Assembly: GCA_012514535.1 (NCBI GenBank)
Contig: JAAZAA010000239.1
Coordinates: forward strand, 1-64,000
From: Myxococcales bacterium
Lineage (GTDB): Bacteria; Myxococcota_A; Polyangia; Polyangiales; Polyangiaceae
Direction: 5' to 3'
Length of the DNA: 64,000 nt
In this document: piece after piece, positions 2,131 through 48,865 of the stretch
Numbering within the stretch: position 1 is the stretch's first letter
Layout of the letters: each line of letters opens with the position of its first letter
Notes under the pieces: model-generated
The model's database searches: none
Seen by the model: the letters and a program-made list of their open reading frames with translations, nothing else
Told to the model about the DNA's origin: nothing
Program-made: the position numbers and the translations under genes

Positions 2131-3378
2131 TCAGCCGGGCGTCATCTGTCCGCTGAGCACGAGCAGGCTGATCATGTAGAGCATGCCGTCGTAGTAGCGG
2201 AACGAACCCGTCGGCACCGGCTCGTCGAGGAGCACCTCGAGGAAGACGTCGTGCTTCGACGACTCGCTGGTCCCCGCCGCCAGGGCGACGAGGGAGCGGT
2301 GCGCGGCGGTGTTGAACGACACCAGGGGCTCGCCGGCGATCGTGTACTCGGACACGTACTCGTCCACCCCCTGCTCCAGGAAGAAATCGAGCCGCCGCTC
2401 GTTCTGCTCGACGACCCAGTCGAAGGGGCCGAACCAGAGGTGATCGAGCGCCAAATTCAGCAGCGTCCGGGCCGTCGTCGCCCGGTAGTTGCCGCGCTCC
2501 GAATCCGGCGACCCGGAGTAGGAGACGACCTCGGGCAGCAGGCCCGTCTCCGGGTGAGCGACCCGGGAGAGGAGATCGCGCGCGTTCTCCGCGGCGCGCG
2601 TCCACAGCTCCGCGCGATCCCGATCGTGGCGTGCCCAGACCTCGTAGAACGCCGGCATGAGGTAATCGACGGCGACCTCCTCCTCCGGGGACCTCGAGCT
2701 GAGCCGGGGCAAGGCCGCCTCCTCGTCGAAGCAGTCGACCACACCGTCGACGACCCCGCCGTTCCGGGCCTCGATGGCCACCATCGCGTCCAGGAGCGCG
2801 AGGGCGTCTTCTCCGTAGGCGTGGTCCCCCGCGGCGCCCCAGCGCGTCTCCGCCGTGAACAGGGTCGTCGCGATGATGCTCGAAGCGTCCGTCGCGGCAG
2901 CCGCGGCGCAGTTCTCGCCCGAGGTGTCACAACGCCAGCGGAGGAGCCCGGCGGAGGGTCCGCTCGTGCTCAGCATGTGCTCCTTGGCCCAGCCCCACAG
3001 CTTGTCGAACACCTCCCGGTGATCGAGGTGGACCGTCACGAGCATCCCGTACGCCATCGAGTCCGTCCGGACGTCACCGTTGGCGATGTCCTGGATGTAG
3101 GCGGTGCCGTCTCCTTGATCGAAGAACACCGCCTCCGTCTCGGGATCACCGAAGAACAGCTGGAGAAAGGCGTCGTTCAGCCGAGCGTTCACCTGGGAGA
3201 TCGGGATGCGATGACGCTCCTCCAGGACGTTCGGCAACCCGCCGGTCCCGGCGGGCTCCTCCTCCGGCGGGCTCGGGGGCTCCTTCACTTCGCTCGTCTG
3301 CTCCCGCGCCCCGAGCACGTCCACACTCGTGCAAGCCGAGAGGAGCGCCCCCGCACCGATCAGGACGAGCCACTTCAT
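2131..3378 (-). CDS. GH8-family lipoprotein with altered catalytic residues
   Basis: A 415-residue lipoprotein (MKWLVLIGAGALLSAC signal, lipobox LSAC) with an acidic Pro/Glu linker and then a GH8 (alpha/alpha)6-barrel domain from about residue 55. GH8 includes reducing-end xylose-releasing exo-oligoxylanase, endoxylanase and endoglucanase activities. The family core GDVRTDSMAYGM followed by FDKLWGWAKEHM (residues 101-135) is unmistakable. From family knowledge this motif is normally T-E-G-x-S-Y-G-M with Glu as general acid; here the position is Asp106. The later motif normally read as APDGEEYF is ATDASSII (162-169), keeping Asp164 but losing the following acids. It may be a weak or re-specialised enzyme, or a binding protein. 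Its start lies 1 nt after the stop of the upstream membrane TPR gene, so it is co-translated with a sigma-factor operon. Confidence 0.8.
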   Translation of the reverse strand: MKWLVLIGAGALLSACTSVDVLGAREQTSEVKEPPSPPEEEPAGTGGLPNVLEERHRIPISQVNARLNDAFLQLFFGDPETEAVFFDQGDGTAYIQDIANGDVRTDSMAYGMLVTVHLDHREVFDKLWGWAKEHMLSTSGPSAGLLRWRCDTSGENCAAAAATDASSIIATTLFTAETRWGAAGDHAYGEDALALLDAMVAIEARNGGVVDGVVDCFDEEAALPRLSSRSPEEEVAVDYLMPAFYEVWARHDRDRAELWTRAAENARDLLSRVAHPETGLLPEVVSYSGSPDSERGNYRATTARTLLNLALDHLWFGPFDWVVEQNERRLDFFLEQGVDEYVSEYTIAGEPLVSFNTAAHRSLVALAAGTSESSKHDVFLEVLLDEPVPTGSFRYYDGMLYMISLLVLSGQMTPG

Positions 3379-3379
3379 G

Positions 3380-4150
3380 TCAGTCGAGGTAACGCTTGGC
3401 GCGCGCTCCCAGGGGGCTCGAGGGATACTTCTCCAGGAACCGCGCGGCGCGCTTCCGGGCCGCGGCGGAGGAGCCGTTCTCGGACAACGCTTGGATGGTG
3501 AGCACCTCCGCCTCGAGCCCGAGCCGGGGCCGCGGGAAGCGCTGGCGATACTCCGCGAGCAGCGTGAGGGCACGCGCCGGGTTCTTCTCCTGGAGCGCGG
3601 CTTCGACCCGGGCGATGTGGGCGAGCTCCTCGCGGAGGCTCGATGCCTCGCTGGAGGGGGCGCGCTGGGATCCGCTCGCGCGCGGCTTGACGCGATCCTC
3701 TGCCGCCGGCCCCGTCGCGTCCTTGGCCGTCTCCGCGGGCGGGCTCATCTCACCCGTCACGGCCGGTCCCGTCACGGACGGCTCGGCTTCGACTTCGGGC
3801 TCCTCCACGACCTCCGGCTCGCCCATCCGCGGCGCTTCGTCGACGAGCGCCACCGATGCCCTCGACGCTTCGTCGTCCGACGGAGTCGCTCCACCCGAGA
3901 AGGCCACCGCGCCGGCGACGCCGAGCGCTCCCGCGAGACCCGTGGCGATGACGATGGTCCCGGTCTTGCCCGACAGCCACCCCAAGGTGCTGGCCTGAGC
4001 CGCGGACGTCGTGGTCAGGCCGACCGCCGCTCCCACCCCCAACGCGGTGAGGGTCTTGTTCCGTAGCTCGGGCGACATCCGCACGTCGCGACCTGCCCGC
4101 AGCAACGCCTCCTCGAGGTCCATCTGTTCCGGATCGACGCTCGGATCCAT
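3380..4150 (-). CDS. Membrane-anchored TPR-like protein, putative anti-sigma or partner of the upstream ECF factor
   Basis: A 256-residue protein: cytoplasmic N-terminus (about 1-50, SPELRNKTLTALG), one membrane segment near residue 60-85 (GTIVIATGLAGALGVAGAV), an acidic linker, and a C-terminal TPR-like helical stretch (ALQEKNPARALTLLAEYRQ; RAARFLEKYPSSPLG). The start overlaps the sigma stop (TGATG; an alternative GTG at 4153 would give a GTGA overlap), which argues for stoichiometric co-expression and an anti-sigma-type role. No canonical zinc anti-sigma motif (HxxxCxxC) is visible, so that role is inferred from position and from the parallel operon at 9077-11025. Confidence 0.6.
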   Translation of the reverse strand: MDPSVDPEQMDLEEALLRAGRDVRMSPELRNKTLTALGVGAAVGLTTTSAAQASTLGWLSGKTGTIVIATGLAGALGVAGAVAFSGGATPSDDEASRASVALVDEAPRMGEPEVVEEPEVEAEPSVTGPAVTGEMSPPAETAKDATGPAAEDRVKPRASGSQRAPSSEASSLREELAHIARVEAALQEKNPARALTLLAEYRQRFPRPRLGLEAEVLTIQALSENGSSAAARKRAARFLEKYPSSPLGARAKRYLD

Positions 4151-4813: not shown

Positions 4814-5921
4814 AGAAATTCCAACCGGCTCCCGCGGCGATACCCCACGCAACCGCAGAAGTCGACGCCAGGACCTCCGGGCCCGGAGCGACCCCGAAGC
4901 GACGCCGGGTGAGCGGGACCTCGAGGGAAGGAGACAGCCACAGGTCGAGATGTCGGGAAATGCGCGCGCGCGACCACGCCTCCAGACCCAGGGTCGCGAA
5001 GAAGCGCGTCGTCGACGTGCCTTCGGCGAAGCCGCGGCTCTCAGCGGAGAGCAACCCGAGCTGGGAGACCGGGCAGAGCAGGAGAAAATGATCGCCGCCC
5101 CACCGGAGCGGGCAATAGGCGAGCCGCGCGCCATAGAAGGTCGTCCTGAGCGTCGGCTCGCGGACGGAGGCGGTCTCCGTCAGACCATACACGGACACGC
5201 GCGCCTCGAGGGGCAACCCCGTCGAACGCTCGGGGCCACTCACGGCGAACAAGATCCCCCCGCCGAGGTGCATCGTGTGATCCATGAGCCGCGCCAGCGC
5301 GAGGACGGGCCCCACGGAGAGCTGCAGGTGCGCTCGAGTCGAGGAGTCGTCGTCCGTGGAGGACGCGTCGTCGTCCTCCGCGTCCTCACGCCGCCGCTCG
5401 TCGTCCTCATCGTCCGAGGTGGTCCGCGCCGGCTCGCCGAGGCCGCCCGGCTCGCCCGAGCCGTCCGCGTCGTCTCCGCGTGCGCCCGACGGCTCCACGG
5501 GGCCGAGGGTCACCGTCGCGTCGGGATCGATGCTGAGGGCAGCGGTCAGCGCGAGCGCCTCCACGACCTCGTCGCAGCTGCCCCCGGTCATCCTCCTCCG
5601 TTCCGGCCTCTGCCCGGCGCGCGTCACCGTCAACACGCCCCGGTACCCGGAAGCGTCCGGGACGACGCTCATCCGGAGGTGTTGCTGCGCCAAGACAGGG
5701 CTCGTTCGGGCAACGCGACGGCTGCGTCGATGGAGCAGGGAGAACGCCTGCTCCTCGTCCATGCACGCGGTCGGCGCGCGGTACTCGAACGCGATGAGGA
5801 TGCGCCCCGCCGTCTCCGCCCGCGCCAGCGCCGGCTCTGCCACGCTCAGCCCACTCCAGACGAGCGCGAGCAGGCAAAGGAAGCGGAGCGGTCTGGCAAA
5901 GACCCGAGGAATGACGTGCAT
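4812..5921 (-). CDS. Outer-membrane beta-barrel-like protein, unrecognised family
   Basis: A 369-residue exported protein. A signal peptide (MHVIPRVFARPLRFLCLLAL, ending near ALARAE at about residue 35) is followed by a ~120-residue soluble N-terminal part (AFEYRAPTACMDEEQAFSLL), a highly acidic linker of about 50 residues, and a C-terminal ~180 residues with alternating polar/hydrophobic strands rich in Gly, Ser and Arg and ending in an aromatic (AAGAGWNF). That terminal Phe is typical of outer-membrane barrels. The layout resembles the protein at 8010-9080. It is transcribed towards the sigma gene but probably ends at the terminator at 4797-4813. It diverges from the lipoprotein at 6096 across a 174-bp gap that must hold both promoters. 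Confidence 0.6.
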   Translation of the reverse strand: MHVIPRVFARPLRFLCLLALVWSGLSVAEPALARAETAGRILIAFEYRAPTACMDEEQAFSLLHRRSRRVARTSPVLAQQHLRMSVVPDASGYRGVLTVTRAGQRPERRRMTGGSCDEVVEALALTAALSIDPDATVTLGPVEPSGARGDDADGSGEPGGLGEPARTTSDDEDDERRREDAEDDDASSTDDDSSTRAHLQLSVGPVLALARLMDHTMHLGGGILFAVSGPERSTGLPLEARVSVYGLTETASVREPTLRTTFYGARLAYCPLRWGGDHFLLLCPVSQLGLLSAESRGFAEGTSTTRFFATLGLEAWSRARISRHLDLWLSPSLEVPLTRRRFGVAPGPEVLASTSAVAWGIAAGAGWNF

Positions 5922-6095
5922 CGGTGTGCGACGGTGGAGCGCCAGCGGGGGCCACCGAGCCGCATCATACACAGGCCCCCTGCGCGCGTCGGCACCATCC
6001 CACGGTGACCGACGGCAGTCCCGAGGCGTGTTCACCGGGTCCTGCCTTTGTCGAAGGTCCGGAGATCCTGTAGGTTCCAGAGCGCTCTCCGGGCC

Positions 6096-7181
6096 ATGAC
6101 GATGACGCCGAGCAGCTGGCTGCATTCCCCGAGCATCGGCGCCCCCTCCGTCCGCCGGAGGCCGCGGAAGTTTCTTCCGTGGTTGCTCCTCGGCGCCTGC
6201 CTGGGCATGCCCTCCTGGGGCTGCCGTCGCGAGTCATCCTCCACAGAGGCCACCACCGAGCCGACCGCCACCGCGCGCTCCGCCGCCACAGAGAGCCAGA
6301 GCACAGAAGAACAGAGCACAGAAGGACAGAGCACGGCCCCGCCGACGACCCTGCTCGAATGGCAGGAGTCCGCCTACGGCACGACGCTGTTCCTCGACGG
6401 CTCCGTGGTGGTGCTCTTGACGCAGACCGCACTGATCCACATCCCCGAGGACGCCCCCGCCCGAAGCACGCCTCTGCCCCTGGGCTCCGGTCCGGCCTTG
6501 ATGGGCGACTCCATCGTCTACTGGCACGATGGCGCCGTTCGTGCCGTGCCCAAGGGCGGCGGAGAGCCGCGCACCCTCGGTCCCCTCGAGCGACAACCAC
6601 AGCGGTTCGTCGCGACGCGGCATGGCTTCGCCTGGCTCGAAGGCCCCCCGGGGCGCCCCGCCGCGTGGTCCACGTTCCGGGACCGGACCCCGCGGGTGCT
6701 GCATCGCACGAGCCATCCGGTCGCCTCTGCGACGATGCTCGATGACTGGGTGTTCTTCGTCGAGGTGGTCGGCGGGGGGGCCTGGCGGATGGGCGGTGTC
6801 TCGCTGAGCGGCAAGGCGACGGCCTTCTCCGCGACGCGCACCGGTCGCCCCCCGTCGATGCTCGCGGCCACTCACGACGGCATCCACTTCTACGACGGCC
6901 CCACCCGCTCGGTGCGACGGCTCAGCCCGGATCTCGAGCAGGAGACGGTGCTCGCCGAGGGCGTGATTTGCTCCCCCTTGGCGGTCTCCGATCGCGTCGT
7001 GTGCGCCCACGTCGGCGGCGTCTACGAGATCCCGGGCGCCGGGGTCCCGCCGCGCACCCTCGTCACTCAGCCGCGTGGCGCCACGGCGACGATCGCCGCC
7101 GACGCACGACGCGTCGTCTGGGTGGCGGACACCGGGGAGGGCCGGCTCGCCGTCCGCTCTCGGCCGCTCCCTCCGCGCTGA
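6096..7181 (+). CDS. Lipoprotein with beta-propeller-like repeats, unknown function
   Basis: A 361-residue predicted lipoprotein. The basic N-terminus and hydrophobic stretch (RKFLPWLLLGACLGMPSWGC) contain two possible lipobox Cys residues (LGAC or SWGC). After a Ser/Thr/Glu-rich linker there are repeated short modules (HGFAWLE, DDWVFFVE, DGIHFYDG, DRVVCAHVGGVYEI, ARRVVWVADTG) spaced about 45-50 residues apart. These look like blades of a beta-propeller of the kind that starts each strand with a 'what is displayed here' motif. The ATG at 6096 was preferred over an upstream TTG at 6048 because it places a normal-length n-region before the hydrophobic core. No enzymatic motif is visible. Confidence 0.6.
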   Translation: MTMTPSSWLHSPSIGAPSVRRRPRKFLPWLLLGACLGMPSWGCRRESSSTEATTEPTATARSAATESQSTEEQSTEGQSTAPPTTLLEWQESAYGTTLFLDGSVVVLLTQTALIHIPEDAPARSTPLPLGSGPALMGDSIVYWHDGAVRAVPKGGGEPRTLGPLERQPQRFVATRHGFAWLEGPPGRPAAWSTFRDRTPRVLHRTSHPVASATMLDDWVFFVEVVGGGAWRMGGVSLSGKATAFSATRTGRPPSMLAATHDGIHFYDGPTRSVRRLSPDLEQETVLAEGVICSPLAVSDRVVCAHVGGVYEIPGAGVPPRTLVTQPRGATATIAADARRVVWVADTGEGRLAVRSRPLPPR

Positions 7182-42852: not shown

Positions 42853-43674
42853 TCAGGGCGTCGCGGGGCTCGGCGCGGGAGCCGCGGGGCTCGGCGCGGG
42901 CGCAGCCGGGCTCGGCGCGGGCGCAGCCGGACTCGGCGCGGGCGCAGCCGGACTCGGCGCGGGCGCAGCCGGACTCGGCGCGGGCGCGGCCGGACTCGGC
43001 GCGGGCGCCGCGGGGCTCGCGGGACGACTCGGCGTCCCGGAACCGGGCGCTGGGATGCCTGCTGGGGTCGGCGGCTGCTCACCGGGTTCCTGGGGCGCAC
43101 GCAGCGCGGGCGGCGGCGGCTCCTTCAGGGGCGGCAGAGGGGCTCCCGCGGGCAGCTCGCGCGTCGCCTTCCAGGACGAGTCGACGCGCTCGAGCTCGTA
43201 GATCCGCTCGAGCTCACCGCCGGGCACACCGACCGTGCGCACGCGCACGAACGCGTTCGTCGGGCTGCGTCGCAGGACCTCTGCCACGGAGCGGGCGCTC
43301 TCCGCGGCCTGGCGCCGTCCCTCGCAGCCGCCCGTCTGGCAAGTCTGCTCGTCGGCCGCGATCGCCTTCGCGAGCTCTCCTGCCACCAGCTGCTTGGCGA
43401 TCGAGAAATCCGCGGTGGCCCAGCGCTGGGCCAGCTCGAACGCGACGCCCTTCTCGTCCCGGGTGCGCGCCTCGAGGGCGACCTCCTTGGGGGACAGGCT
43501 CTCTCCTGGCTCGTGGTAGTTGCACGCAGCGCGGCCGGCCGCCCACGCGAGGAGCGTGGTCGTCGCGACGATGGTCAACATGCCCACCGTCTGCCGCGAG
43601 GGCGCGTTCAGCTGGTCTTCGGACCACGTCCCCGACGTCGTACGGGATCTGGGCGAACGGGGAGTTTCGCTCAT
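42853..43674 (-). CDS. Membrane-anchored protein with Ala/Pro/Ser heptad repeat tail
   Basis: A 273-residue protein. Cytoplasmic N-terminus, one membrane helix (TVGMLTIVATTTLLAWAAG), a periplasmic ~130-residue domain (NYHEPGESLSPKEVALEART, FELAQRWATADFSIAKQLVA, CQTGGCEGRRQAAESARSVA) and a C-terminal tail of eight near-identical AAPAPSP units. The tail would be an extended rod, perhaps crossing the periplasm or wall. No family recognised. Its DNA is the 21-bp tandem repeat listed separately. ATG at 43674; an ATG at 43689 is possible. Confidence 0.65.
   Translation of the reverse strand: MSETPRSPRSRTTSGTWSEDQLNAPSRQTVGMLTIVATTTLLAWAAGRAACNYHEPGESLSPKEVALEARTRDEKGVAFELAQRWATADFSIAKQLVAGELAKAIAADEQTCQTGGCEGRRQAAESARSVAEVLRRSPTNAFVRVRTVGVPGGELERIYELERVDSSWKATRELPAGAPLPPLKEPPPPALRAPQEPGEQPPTPAGIPAPGSGTPSRPASPAAPAPSPAAPAPSPAAPAPSPAAPAPSPAAPAPSPAAPAPSPAAPAPSPATP
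42862..43019. repeat. 21-bp coding tandem repeat (about 7-8 copies)
   Basis: Units of GGACTCGGCGCGGGCGCAGC + C with single-base variants. On the minus strand each encodes one AAPAPSP heptad of the gene at 42853-43674. High identity between copies suggests recent expansion or ongoing slippage, so copy number may vary between strains. Confidence 0.9.
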
Positions 43675-43730
43675 GGCGAGCGGGAGCATCCCTGGCACCG
43701 GCGCGCCTGGCAAACGAAAAAAAGGGCGGC

Positions 43731-43765
43731 TCCAGTCTTCTCCGGGGCGCGACCGACGGCTCGCC
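43731..43765 (-). repeat. Partial copy of the dispersed hairpin element
   Basis: A 35-bp stretch that on the minus strand reads GGCGAGCCGTCGGTCGCGCC and on to GGAGAAGACTGGA. It matches the middle of the full element at 43801-43919 (GGCGAGCCGCTGGTCGCGAC and on) with few differences and in the same orientation. It appears to be the remains of a second, head-to-tail copy upstream of the gene starting at 43674. Confidence 0.65.
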
Positions 43766-43800
43766 ACCGGGAGGGCTCCGCCCAGCAGGCCCCGACCCCT

Positions 43801-43930: not shown

Positions 43931-44614
43931 ATGAGCGCACGACTCGAGCTCGGGCCCACCCAGCCCCTCTGGCGGGGCCCCTGGGCGTTGGCCCGACTGG
44001 TCACCCGCGGCGGCTCGCAGCGTCGCGCGTTCCGTAGCGCCCTGTGGAGCGGGGTCTCCCTGGCCCTCCTCTCGACGCCGCTGATCGCCGTGTTGGCACG
44101 CACCAGCGCGGCGGACGCGACGGACATCCTCGCCGTTCGGGTCCTCGCCTACGCCTCCTGGCTCGTCGGGGGCTTCGGCGCCTGGGCGTTCTTCGGCCCG
44201 GGCGCGGTCAGCCCGATGGCGGACACCCTCGCCCGCGAGCGGGGCTTCTCGACCAGCGACCTCGGCACGCTGTGGAGCGTCGGGGTGGCGGTGCGGCTCG
44301 CCCTGGCGATCTTCCTCATCACGCTGCTGCCCCTGGGCGTGAGCGTCGCCCTCAGCCCCTCCACCTCCCTCCTCCTGTCCCGGGCCCTGCTCCTGCCCGC
44401 GGTGGCCGCCTACGCGACGCTCTTGGGCGGGGTGATCGCCGCCCTCGGCTCCCTCGCGCGTCGGCTCACGCCGCGTCACCCGCGCGCCACCCTCGCCCTC
44501 CTGGTGCTCCTCCCCTACTTCGCGAGCTTCTGGTTCTCCGCGATCCCCAGCGTGCCGGGGGTCTTCGGCTGGTTGCTGGACGGGCTCATCGCCCTCGGGG
44601 GATGGCTCCAATGA
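43931..44614 (+). CDS. Polytopic membrane protein of a pseudo-ABC operon
   Basis: A 227-residue membrane protein with about six helices (SALWSGVSLALLSTPLIAVL, VLAYASWLVGGFGAWAFFGP, VGVAVRLALAIFLITLLPLG, LLLPAVAAYATLLGGVIAAL, ATLALLVLLPYFASFWF). No family recognised by sequence; size and helix pattern are compatible with an ABC-2-type permease half. It is first in a three-gene operon (ATGA overlap with the ABC-like gene) and starts 12 bp after the dispersed hairpin element. Confidence 0.65.
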   Translation: MSARLELGPTQPLWRGPWALARLVTRGGSQRRAFRSALWSGVSLALLSTPLIAVLARTSAADATDILAVRVLAYASWLVGGFGAWAFFGPGAVSPMADTLARERGFSTSDLGTLWSVGVAVRLALAIFLITLLPLGVSVALSPSTSLLLSRALLLPAVAAYATLLGGVIAALGSLARRLTPRHPRATLALLVLLPYFASFWFSAIPSVPGVFGWLLDGLIALGGWLQ

Positions 44615-45489
44615 CCGCGGCGAGCACCGCCAGCGTCACCTTCCAGGGGGTGCGGCTCCGCAACGGGTACACCCTCCACGCCACCCTGGACGCAGGCGTG
44701 CACACCTTCTTCGCGGACGCTCAGGAGCCCCTCGCCCAGGCCAGCCTCGAGGAGCTCTGCGCCCTCGTCGCGGGGGTCAACGCTCCTCGACGAGGCAACC
44801 TGCTCGTCCAAGGGCACCGCCCCTACGACCACCCGCCGACGCGGCGCCGCATCGCCAGCGTGCTGGCCTCGGAGCCCCCGCTCGTCGGGCCCACGGTGAA
44901 GGACCACGTCGAGCGGGTCGGCTCCCTCCTCGGCGTGGACGTCACGGATCTGGACGCCCCCCTCGACACCTGGCGAGAACGCCGCGCGGAACACCTCGAC
45001 GGGACGGAGCGGCGCCGACTCGCCGCGGCGATCGCCTTCGCGCAGCCCGCTCCCCTCGTCGCCGTGCTCCACGAGCCCACCCGCATCGGGCCTCCCCTGG
45101 ACGAGCCTCGAGTCCTCGCGCGCATCCAGAGCTGGCGGGAGGCAGGCTGCGTCGTGATCTGCGGCACCACCGATCCGCGGGTCGCCGCGCGCCTGAGCAC
45201 CCAGGCGTGGTCCCTGTCCCGGATCGAGCGGGCGGAGGCGCCGCGCCCCGAGTATCTCGTGCGCAGCGGCGGCGCCCGCGGGCTGGCGGCGCGGCTCGTC
45301 GATCATCCGGCGGTCAGCGGGCTCCGCTACGACGAGCAGCTCCCCCGCGATCTCTGGGTCCGCGGCTCCGACGCGGAGGAGCTCGCGGACGCGATCCAGG
45401 CAGCGGTGCTCGCCGAAGGGTGTGAGCTCCACGAGCTGACGCAGCTGCAGCGCCAGGCCCACCTCCCCTCCACCCCGGGGGCGCCGTGA
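44611..45489 (+). CDS. ABC-ATPase-like protein lacking Walker A and other nucleotide motifs
   Basis: A 292-residue protein that follows the layout of an ABC nucleotide-binding subunit but without its catalytic residues. Where GPNGAGKT is expected after a GVH.. strand, it reads GVHTFFADAQEPLAQASLEE, with no GxxGxGKS/T. The Q-loop region is VLASEPPLVGPTVKDHVERV. The signature LSGGQ..R is LDGTERRRLAAAIAFAQ. Walker B LLLLDEPT is LVAVLHEPT, so the Asp is His and the Glu is kept. The switch segment is VVICGTTDP in place of LxTH. A ~100-residue C-terminal domain follows. Both neighbours are membrane proteins with 4-nt overlaps. Inferred to be a non-hydrolysing pseudo-ATPase subunit. Confidence 0.75.
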   Translation: MTAASTASVTFQGVRLRNGYTLHATLDAGVHTFFADAQEPLAQASLEELCALVAGVNAPRRGNLLVQGHRPYDHPPTRRRIASVLASEPPLVGPTVKDHVERVGSLLGVDVTDLDAPLDTWRERRAEHLDGTERRRLAAAIAFAQPAPLVAVLHEPTRIGPPLDEPRVLARIQSWREAGCVVICGTTDPRVAARLSTQAWSLSRIERAEAPRPEYLVRSGGARGLAARLVDHPAVSGLRYDEQLPRDLWVRGSDAEELADAIQAAVLAEGCELHELTQLQRQAHLPSTPGAP

Positions 45490-46166
45490 GCGGTCGCGTC
45501 TTCCCCTGGGAGGTCCGGGCGCTGTTCCCCGCGCGGCGCACCCTGTCCTGGCTCGCGATCCCCCTCGCCGCGGCGGCCCTGGTCGGGCGCGCCCGCAGCG
45601 CCGACGACGCCGCGGCCGCCGCAGACGCGAGCGTCGAGCTCACCTTCGGCATCCTGCTCCCGCTCCTCGCCACCGCCGCCGTCATCCACCTGACGGGCGG
45701 CTCGAACCTCCGGGATCTGGGGGCGTCCGCGGCCCGCTACGGCATGAACCGACGAGCGCGGGTCCTCACTGCCCTCGCCGCGGTCACCGTGGGGCTCGTC
45801 GGCGTCGCTTTGTTGCTCACCGCGGTGAGCCTCCCGGCGGCCCGCGGCCTGAGCGATCCCCGACTGGTCGCCGACCTCCTGGCGACGGCCCCCGTCGCCG
45901 TGACGCTGGGCCTCGCCTATGGCCCCTGGCTCGCGGCGGGGGCCTGCTTCGGCTCTCGGGGAGGCGGCGTCCTGGCCGCCCTCCTGATCGACTGGCTCGC
46001 GGGAGCCACCGCCCTGCCCATCGCCCTGGCCACACCGCGGGGTCACGCGCGCCACCTCCTGGGCCTGGAGGCGGCCTTCTCCTTCGCGCCCTGGCTGTCC
46101 TTCCTCGCCCTCCTGGGCCTGGCCGGTTTGGGGGCCCTGCTCGTGGTCCTCCGCACTCCCCGCTGA
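45486..46166 (+). CDS. Second polytopic membrane protein of the pseudo-ABC operon
   Basis: A 226-residue protein with about six helices (LSWLAIPLAAAALVGRA, SVELTFGILLPLLATAAVIH, ALAAVTVGLVGVALLLTAVS, VTLGLAYGPWLAAGACFGS, AALLIDWLAGATALPIALAT, SFLALLGLAGLGALLVVL). Starts with PWEVRALFPARRTLSW, an amphipathic coupling-helix-like segment. GTG at 45486 overlaps the ABC-like gene stop (GTGA). Almost the same length as the first membrane protein of the operon, so the pair could form a heterodimer. Confidence 0.65.
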   Translation: MSGRVFPWEVRALFPARRTLSWLAIPLAAAALVGRARSADDAAAAADASVELTFGILLPLLATAAVIHLTGGSNLRDLGASAARYGMNRRARVLTALAAVTVGLVGVALLLTAVSLPAARGLSDPRLVADLLATAPVAVTLGLAYGPWLAAGACFGSRGGGVLAALLIDWLAGATALPIALATPRGHARHLLGLEAAFSFAPWLSFLALLGLAGLGALLVVLRTPR

Positions 46167-46294
46167 TCGCCGGGCGGTGCCCCCTCGGCGCCCGGCTGAC
46201 GGCCGACATCGCCTGGCTGACGACATTGCCCGTGCACCCCACTCGGCGCCCAACTGGCGCCGCCCGGTCCCCGCAGCTAGGCTGCCTGCCGTTC

Positions 46295-47002
46295 GTGCGC
46301 GCGACCGAATTTCATTTCCCCTGCCGCGGCAGCTTGGCGGAGGCGCTCGCGCGGGCCGAGGCCCGCGAGCTCGAGCTGTCCTGCGCCGACGGCCTGAGCG
46401 ACGGCGACTGGCTGATGGTCACCGTGCGCGTGGCAGAGGACGCCACGTGCCTCGCGGGGCGCGTCATCGCCCGTGAAGGCCAGGGCGCCCCCTTCGGCGT
46501 GGAGTTCGCCGAACACGACTGGCATCACCTCCGCGCCCTCGCCGCGGAGCCAGCCGCCGCGCCCCAGAACCCGCGCACCCGTCAGACGCCCCCGTGCTCG
46601 GTCTGTCCGCCCTGTGACGCCAACGTGCTCATCGTGCACGACGATCCCACCGTCGCCGACATGCTGGGGCGCATGCTCGGGTCCCATGGGTTCTGCGCGA
46701 CGTGGGTCTCGACCCCCGCGGAGGCCTTCAACGCGCTCCCCGACAAGAAGGTCGATCTCGTCCTCGCCGATTGGTCCCCCCGGGGCATGGCGGGCCACGA
46801 GTTCTGCGCGGAGCTGACGAGCCACTGCCAGGCCCTCGCGATGCGTCGCCCGTCCCTCGTCTTCCTCGCCTGCCCCAGCGCCCGCGCCCAGCGACCGCTG
46901 GCCCTCGAAGCGGGCGCCGACGACTTCGTGGTGTTGCCCTTCCGCTGGCGTGAGCTCGACGCCCGCCTCCTGAGCCTCCTGCACCGCCCGACCGCGTCCT
47001 GA
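46295..47002 (+). CDS. PilZ-like domain plus degenerate receiver domain
   Basis: A 235-residue cytoplasmic protein. Residues 1-85 resemble a PilZ or PilZ-like barrel (LSDGDWLMVTVRVAEDATCL, APFGVEFAEHDWHHLRAL), but the c-di-GMP motif RxxxR...DxSxxG is absent. A linker holds CSVCPPC (101-107). Residues 109-230 are a receiver domain: VLIVHDDPTV acidic pair, phosphoacceptor Asp159 in LVLADWSPRGMAG, and a late strand DDFVVLPFRW where the conserved Lys before Pro is Leu. Phosphorylation may therefore be impaired. GTG at 46295; a TTG at 46226 would add 23 residues. Confidence 0.65.
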   Translation: MRATEFHFPCRGSLAEALARAEARELELSCADGLSDGDWLMVTVRVAEDATCLAGRVIAREGQGAPFGVEFAEHDWHHLRALAAEPAAAPQNPRTRQTPPCSVCPPCDANVLIVHDDPTVADMLGRMLGSHGFCATWVSTPAEAFNALPDKKVDLVLADWSPRGMAGHEFCAELTSHCQALAMRRPSLVFLACPSARAQRPLALEAGADDFVVLPFRWRELDARLLSLLHRPTAS

Positions 47003-47347: not shown

Positions 47348-48865
47348 TCACTGCTCCCGGAACGCCTCCGCTGGGCGCAGACGCGCCGCGTGCATGGCGG
47401 GCCACACCGTGGCGATGAGGCAGATGGCCACCGCGAACACGCCCACCATCGTGAACTCGAAGGGACGCACCTCCACGGGCAGGTGCGAGATGAAGTAGAC
47501 CTGCGGATCCAGGGGCACCGCCCAGATCAACAGCCCCTTGCACACGAGGAGCCCCAAGCCGAGCCCGATGGCGGCGCCGAAGACCCCGATGATGCCGCCC
47601 TGGTACAAGAACGCCCAGAGCACCGTCCCGTTGGTCGCGCCCATCGCCTTGAGCACCGCGATCTCACGCTTCTTGTCGAGCACGACCATGATCAGCGTCG
47701 CGATCACGGTGAAGGCGGCCACCACGATGATCAGCGCCAGGACCAGGCTCATCACGATCTGCTGGATGCGCAGGGCCGTGAACAGGCCGTGGTTCAGCTC
47801 CTCCCAATCCATCGTGTAGTGGAGGCCATCACCCAGCCGCTCGTCGATGAGCCGGGCGATGGATCGCGCGTCGTCGATGTCCTCGACGCGCATCTCGATG
47901 CCCGTGACGCTGTCGCCGGTGTCGTAGAACTCCTGGGCCTCGTAGAGATCCGTGTAGACGAGCCGCGAGTCGTACTGATCGAACCCGGCCTCGAACACCG
48001 CGATGACCCGGAACTCCTTGGCGACCGGGGCGCGGATGGTGTCCCGCGCGAAGCTGAGCCCGATGGTGGGCGACGTGACCCGCACGCAGCTCCCGATCGC
48101 CGCGTCGAGGTTGCGGGCGAGGGTCTTCCCCAACACGATCCCGGGCAGGGCGCTCTGATCCGAGGTGCACGGGTCCGGCAGCAGGTCGTCCGGCAGGATG
48201 TCGTCCTCCGGGAGCTCCGCCGCGTACCCCTCGTCGGGGACGATGCTGCCCTCGGGGAGGGTGTCCAGGTCCTCGGAGGGCGCGGCTGCTTCGGGCTCCT
48301 CCGCGGCCGCTGCGCTCGCCGCCTCGTCTTCCTGGATGATGCGCTGGATCTCGTCCAGGAGGCCGGTGGTGGTGACGGGATCCGGCGCCGGCACCCGCTT
48401 GGTCGTCTTGCCGCGCCGTCGCTCGGGGGGCTTCGCGCCGGGCCGACGCAGCCCCTCGAGGCTCCCCTCCGTGATGTGCTGCGGGAGATCGAGCACCTGG
48501 CCGACCCGCTCCGGATCGACGCCCTTGAGCAGCACGCCGGTGGCCGTGTAATCGCCGTGGGTGACCATCATGGGGTTGATGGCGAACGGCCCGATCCCGG
48601 TGACCCCGGGCACGTCCTCCACCTTCTTCATGAGGTCGCGGTACTCGCTGAAGTCGCTGGAGCGCTTCAGGATGAGCACGTGGGCGTTCACGCCGAGGAC
48701 CTTGTCGCGGAACTGCGTCCGAAAACCTCCCGTGACGCTCATCACCGTGGCGAGGGCCGCCACGCCGAGCGCCACCCCGAAGATCGCGAACAGCGTCCCC
48801 ACGGAGATGAACGCTCGCTTCTTCGAGCTCATGTAACGGAGTGCAAGCTCCAGGGAAAAACCCAT
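47348..48865 (-). CDS. LolC/LolE-type lipoprotein-releasing ABC permease with acidic insertion
   Basis: A 505-residue inner-membrane protein of the MacB/FtsX permease class. TM1 (FISVGTLFAIFGVALGVAAL) follows the LolC-like start SLELALRYMSSKKRAF. A large periplasmic domain (about 45-360) precedes three C-terminal helices with VLDKKREIAVLKAMGATN and AMHAARLRPAEAFR, both hallmark segments. LolC/E extract outer-membrane lipoproteins for LolA. About 95 residues (141-236), rich in Ala, Glu, Asp and Pro, are inserted between GSLEGLRRPGA and ALPGIVLGKTLA, where ordinary family members run straight on; they explain the length (505 versus about 410). No LolD ATPase is in the window. Confidence 0.85.
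   Translation of the reverse strand: MGFSLELALRYMSSKKRAFISVGTLFAIFGVALGVAALATVMSVTGGFRTQFRDKVLGVNAHVLILKRSSDFSEYRDLMKKVEDVPGVTGIGPFAINPMMVTHGDYTATGVLLKGVDPERVGQVLDLPQHITEGSLEGLRRPGAKPPERRRGKTTKRVPAPDPVTTTGLLDEIQRIIQEDEAASAAAAEEPEAAAPSEDLDTLPEGSIVPDEGYAAELPEDDILPDDLLPDPCTSDQSALPGIVLGKTLARNLDAAIGSCVRVTSPTIGLSFARDTIRAPVAKEFRVIAVFEAGFDQYDSRLVYTDLYEAQEFYDTGDSVTGIEMRVEDIDDARSIARLIDERLGDGLHYTMDWEELNHGLFTALRIQQIVMSLVLALIIVVAAFTVIATLIMVVLDKKREIAVLKAMGATNGTVLWAFLYQGGIIGVFGAAIGLGLGLLVCKGLLIWAVPLDPQVYFISHLPVEVRPFEFTMVGVFAVAICLIATVWPAMHAARLRPAEAFREQ

Follow-up and report, generated by a model that had tools for sequence, protein, structure and literature searches.

A conserved three-gene ABC-2-like operon of Polyangiaceae in which the only ATPase-like subunit lacks the Walker A motif

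An ATPase motor is generally taken as the defining feature of ABC transporters. In the NosFYD system the ATPase NosF is functional, and NosFY forms a homodimer together with NosD. In the degenerate-site ABC exporters Pdr5, TAP, TM287/288, TmrAB and ABCG5/G8, a degenerate and a canonical site are present in the same complex, and to our knowledge the degenerate ABC transporters described so far keep at least one working site. NBD1 of Pdr5 has lost the Walker A Lys, the Walker B Glu and the H-loop His, the MgATP affinity of the degenerate site was reported to be comparable to that of the canonical site, and the protein works because NBD2 is canonical (PMC7756269). A literature search for bacterial ABC pseudo-ATPases, in which most subscription journals were outside coverage so that a description may have been missed, returned no system matching the one presented below.

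The window analyzed in this study is a stretch of 64,000 nucleotides from a Myxococcales bacterium of the family Polyangiaceae. It contains a triad of genes (43931-46166; Table 1) organized as a tight operon, with 4-nt overlaps formed by ATGA at 44611-44614 and GTGA at 45486-45489. When the open reading frames were re-read, the coordinates, the lengths and both overlaps were found to be the same as those reported in an earlier note on this DNA. An antisense ORF (44515-45462, minus strand) favoured by a crude GC3 caller was rejected, since it is the sense frame that is conserved among relatives, along with the overlaps. The C-terminal extension of the pseudo-NBD resembles the DUF4162-type tail found in ABC-2 ATPases, and alignment of TM2 revealed the conserved motifs ARxGxxRR and PR[AG]HxxNLLG.

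Table 1. Genes of the triad and positions of the former catalytic motifs, in window coordinates
Feature	Coordinates	Strand	Description	Basis
TM1	43931..44614	+	227 aa, ABC-2-permease-like membrane subunit	ORF, position in relatives, profile
Pseudo-NBD	44611..45489	+	292 aa, ABC-ATPase-like, without Walker A	
TM2	45486..46166	+	226 aa, predicted ABC-2 permease fold, GTG start	AlphaFold2, Foldseek, alignment
Former P-loop	44713..44751	+	residues 35-47, ADAQEPLAQASLE	alignment, column counts
Former signature motif	44995..45009	+	residues 129-133, LDGTE	alignment, column counts
Walker B end	45067..45081	+	residues 153-157, LHEPT	alignment, column counts
Switch region	45166..45174	+	residues 186-188, TTD	alignment, column counts

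Pfam gave nothing convincing for the TM1, NBD-like and TM2 proteins of the window. The ABC2_membrane profile matched neither window TM1 nor window TM2, and no PF00005 match was obtained for the window NBD-like protein; among its relatives, those in L021 and L097 scored above the gathering cut-off of PF00005 and the one in L008 had no match. Searched alone against NCBIfam, the window NBD-like protein gave weak ABC matches (CydC, 2.2e-5; cbiO, 8.2e-5), mostly in its second half. A family profile of the same protein matched ABC ATPases in the PDB with values of up to 7e-33. AlphaFold2 models, for which alignments of related loci were used as input, had a pLDDT of 88.3 for the NBD-like protein and a pLDDT of 89.3 and a pTM of 0.85 for TM2. 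In Foldseek the NBD-like model matched NosF, TM_1403, MetN, FtsE and CcmA (probability 1.00, E-values to 6e-13), and the TM2 model matched NosY and the ABCG membrane domains (probability 1.00, TM-score 0.6-0.70), with weak E-values of 0.03-0.5. The middle protein is thus predicted to have the ABC nucleotide-binding-domain fold that the earlier note had assigned to it, and TM2 a predicted ABC-2 transmembrane fold. A fold unrelated to ABC ATPases was ruled out by these Foldseek matches and by the comparison of the family profile with the PDB, and the homology to ABC ATPases exceeds what chance would give.

The catalytic motifs were compared in a profile alignment covering 68 genomes. Walker A (GxxGxGK[ST]) was absent, and its Lys was found in 0 of the 67 family members in which the loop was covered, so that no relative with an intact Walker A came to light. 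The former P-loop of the relatives follows the pattern G-[TA]-P-x-D-G-[TSA] (G in 90%, mostly [TA]-P-x, D in 84%, G in 85%, then T as the commonest residue), and the Gly before the Lys position is conserved. The window copy belongs to the more divergent ones: its former P-loop lacks the D-G and is interrupted by a 5-residue insertion. At the signature, LSGGQ is replaced by LDGTE in the window and mostly by LSxxE, without the two Gly, in the family. The switch His is absent in 68/68; Thr stands in its place in the window, and most relatives have Ser or Ala there. At the Walker B Asp position, D occurs in 10/68 and most members carry H, E, F, Y or V, with His in the window (LHEPT), and the catalytic-Glu position that follows holds Glu in the window copy and in 65 of 68 relatives; the Pro of Walker B is, like this Glu, almost invariant across the family.

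The earlier note had read the window motifs correctly, from the missing Walker A to the missing switch His. Its claim that every catalytic motif is eroded stands for Walker A, the switch His and the signature Gly; it does not stand as a whole, since the catalytic Glu is kept in nearly all relatives, the Walker B Asp in some and LSxxE of the signature in many. Because the P-loop Lys and its second Gly, the signature Gly and the switch His are gone, the pseudo-NBD would not be capable of canonical ATP binding and hydrolysis. The kept Walker B Glu, together with the Asp in 10/68, hints at some leftover nucleotide-site chemistry. Since the new loop motif is conserved and the Glu is retained, the nucleotide site was rebuilt rather than scrambled.

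A first search covered 60 genomes of the Polyangiaceae and gave matches in 29, of which approximately 23 hold true relatives; the remainder hold ordinary ABC ATPases with Walker A. A scan of genome contigs with the single window protein gave no match. When a TM2 profile was applied to 290 sampled genomes of the class, the triad system was found in 68 family genomes, in one copy each, and the NBD-like gene adjoins TM2 in nearly all of them. Outside the family, the same sample yielded only one weak TM2-profile match, in G219 of the sister family, and the triad there (L120) also lacks Walker A. Overall, the triad is present in approximately 70 genomes of the window's family, from dozens of genera; many of the sampled genomes are MAGs, and the number of family genomes lacking the triad should be read as a minimum. 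The search for the same three-gene order in other Polyangia genomes, proposed in the earlier note, found TM1, the NBD-like gene and TM2 in this order at nearly all triad loci, nearly always with 4-nt overlaps (mostly -4/-4). Natural NBD-TM2 fusions are present in L014, L017 and L119; in L119 (2498-3982, minus strand) the NBD half of the fusion escapes the family profile.

The triad is single-copy and mostly vertically inherited. In G049, a genome of the same genus as the window, locus L159 retains only a TM1-like ORF (2573-3721, minus strand); neither the other two genes of the triad nor the REC gene next to it turned up there. G246 belongs to a different genus of the family and has no triad at the syntenic site (L160), where a TPR-like protein (5661-6755, minus strand) fills the gap and the REC gene persists. 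The remnant in the first genome and the absence in the second show that the triad can be lost.

A tree was built in which the dead domains were compared with intact NBDs of the window genome and of family f37 (see below). All 22 sampled dead domains formed one clade (support 100/99), which is consistent with a single old loss. In within-genus comparisons (Nei-Gojobori), the NBD-like gene had dN/dS values of mostly 0.14-0.43 and TM2 had values of mostly 0.11-0.48, with one distant TM2 pair at 0.54, and the reading frames were open in all covered relatives. These values show that purifying selection acts on the NBD-like gene and on TM2. Together with the kept gene order and overlaps, they support the earlier proposal that selection maintains the operon. 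Neither a sequencing error nor a recent pseudogene explains the window copy, because the dead domain is shared by 68 relatives without Walker A and dN/dS is below 1.

In the window's clade, the triad lies in a syntenic block in which it is preceded by an OmpA-like gene, an ECF sigma factor, an NrsF-like protein and a gene without a Pfam match, and followed by a REC-domain gene, a LolC/E-like permease, a Ser/Thr kinase and a nucleotidyltransferase-like gene, the last two being named from sequence. Two other triad clades lie in different contexts, and therefore the neighbours do not define the function of the triad. An obligate tie between the triad and the REC gene was ruled out, as the other clades lie elsewhere and the REC gene occurs without the triad in G246. 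This gene (46226-47002), which adjoins the triad in approximately 12 syntenic loci, encodes a C-terminal REC domain without the usual Lys before Pro-Phe and an N-terminal domain with a PilZ-like look and no Pfam match. On the other side, the gene at 42853-43767 (minus strand) is conserved, has no Pfam match and is an upstream syntenic neighbour of the triad in 11 genomes; its window copy carries a long tail of PAPSPAA tandem repeats. In the third clade (L051, 2343-4775, minus strand, and approximately 19 related loci), the triad is divergently paired with a membrane protein of approximately 800 aa that ends in a sigma-54-activator-type AAA lid (PF25601). An anti-phage defence system and a phage gene were both dropped as candidates: PADLOC gave nothing useful, and there was no meaningful PHROGs or viral-structure lead.

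A broadened TM2 profile reached family f37 elsewhere in the phylum (loci L143-L146), in which the operon is NBDa-TM1-NBDb-TM2. Both NBDs have an intact Walker A (GPNGAGKST), LDEP and the switch His and are clear PF00005 members; TM1 of f37 scores above the PF12679 cut-off and TM2 below it. By hhalign, TM2 of the triad matched TM2 of f37 with 96% probability (E 1.8e-9), compared to 0.1% (E 0.48) for control ABC-2 permeases. The corresponding TM1 match was weaker, with 55% probability and E 1.2e-4, compared to E 0.43 for the controls. Descent from ABC-2 proteins, suggested in the earlier note, is supported by this homology and by the NosY-like fold of TM2. Most likely the triad descends from an ABC-2 exporter that lost one of its ATPases and whose other ATPase became disabled. 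That the lost ATPase was NBDa and the disabled one NBDb is something we infer, because f37 NBDb does not come out in the tree as the specific sister group of the dead domains.

The explanation we favour for these observations is a non-hydrolysing complex derived from an ABC-2 exporter, and the account as a whole is given a rough probability of 0.55. The ancestor probably resembled the f37 operon; in the Polyangiaceae lineage one ATPase gene would have gone from the locus and the other would have become the pseudo-NBD. The most likely arrangement, suggested by the folds, the translational coupling and the NBD-TM2 fusions, is a TM1/TM2 heterodimer of the usual ABC-2 kind whose coupling helices are capped on the cytosolic side by the docked pseudo-NBD. 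Because the ATP-grabbing motif was lost long ago in the only NBD subunit, the triad is probably no longer an ATP-driven pump by itself. The complex would work without ATP hydrolysis of its own, either facilitating passage across the membrane in a gated or passive way or acting as a sensor; the P-loop in its rebuilt form (G-T-P-x-D-G-T) could, with the kept Glu, serve the NBD-TMD contact or a new ligand. The channel, assembly factor or sensor suggested in the earlier note would likewise be candidate roles. Complex formation, the lack of ATP use in vivo and the facilitator or sensor role are what we infer from sequences and models. A stronger version, in which the lineage has an ABC-2 heterodimer whose P-loop was rebuilt as an Asp-Gly loop for ligand sensing or gating, operating family-wide and wholly without ATP hydrolysis, is tentative and falls somewhat short of an even chance.

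No second NBD is present in the triad operon, so the pairing of a canonical with a degenerate site is not seen at the locus itself, and within approximately 10 kb no intact NBD was found in 20 loci except one located 8 kb away in L039, which looked unrelated. An intact ABC-2 NBD encoded elsewhere might nevertheless pair with the pseudo-NBD or replace it, giving a heterodimeric exporter with one half dead. The f37 homologue does have two different NBDs, and Pdr5 pairs one heavily degenerate NBD with a canonical one (PMC7756269). A partner in trans could be drawn from the approximately 40 other ABC ATPases encoded by the window genome, including a permease-less ABC-2-type NBD present in 54/60 family genomes. 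We consider this arrangement, the main alternative, rather unlikely. Neither composite site of such a heterodimer would be complete, because Walker A and the signature Gly are both missing from the pseudo-NBD. Moreover, the orphan NBD is also present in G049, G017 and G023, where no triad was found, and was not found at E 1e-80 in the triad-bearing single-contig genomes G020 and G059. No NBD of the window genome groups with f37 NBDa in the tree. This orphan, an intact ABC-2-type ATPase (G000:C256:22122-23036, L147 and L169; also L170-L172), has 53-73% identity across the 54 genomes and no adjacent permease in the four genomes examined, and lies near an outer-membrane-like protein and a MurJ-like flippase.

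The pseudo-NBD could also be a nucleotide sensor that binds ATP or another nucleotide without hydrolysis and gates the ABC-2 part. Loss of the Walker A Lys and of the middle Gly removes the phosphate cradle, and the window copy has neither the D-G nor an uninterrupted loop there, which makes such a role improbable, even though the Walker B Glu and Pro are almost invariant, the Gly before the Lys position is kept, a new Asp-Gly is present and degenerate sites elsewhere retain ATP affinity (PMC7756269). The least probable of the accounts considered is that the triad is a fading relic: an exporter that has been inactivated, persists through inertia or because of some minor role, and is gradually disappearing. 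Its turnover is indeed much faster than that of its neighbours (25-35% identity compared to 55-68% for the LolC/E-like gene), it is missing in G246, and only the TM1-like remnant is left in G049. Arguing against decay are reading frames that stay open in every covered relative, a dN/dS far below 1, the fixation of a new loop motif after the loss of Walker A and a three-gene coupling held through deep divergence.

If the non-hydrolysing complex is the correct reading, the ABC-2 scaffold can be reused without ATP, as the only encoded NBD would be dead while operon, fold and selection persist. Natural contrasts are available in the intact f37 relatives, in the dead triads of approximately 70 genomes and in the losses in G049 and G246.

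Compared to described systems, the closest solved folds are those of NosFY(D), with NosF resembling the pseudo-NBD and NosY resembling TM2; unlike NosFY, the triad has an apparently dead NBD and two different membrane proteins. The f37 operon shares the TM1-NBD-TM2 order and, where it was read, the 4-nt overlap between NBDb and TM2, but it differs in the extra NBD gene before TM1, in two intact NBDs and in its PF12679 matches. The LolC/E-/MacB-type permease at 47348-48865 is an ABC-related membrane protein of the same neighbourhood; it differs in its FtsX/MacB fold (PF02687, PF12704) and lies on the opposite strand, outside the triad. Like Pdr5, TAP, TM287/288, TmrAB and ABCG5/G8, the triad has an NBD with degenerate motifs, and in contrast to these exporters its operon encodes no canonical NBD and its P-loop glycine pattern is rebuilt.
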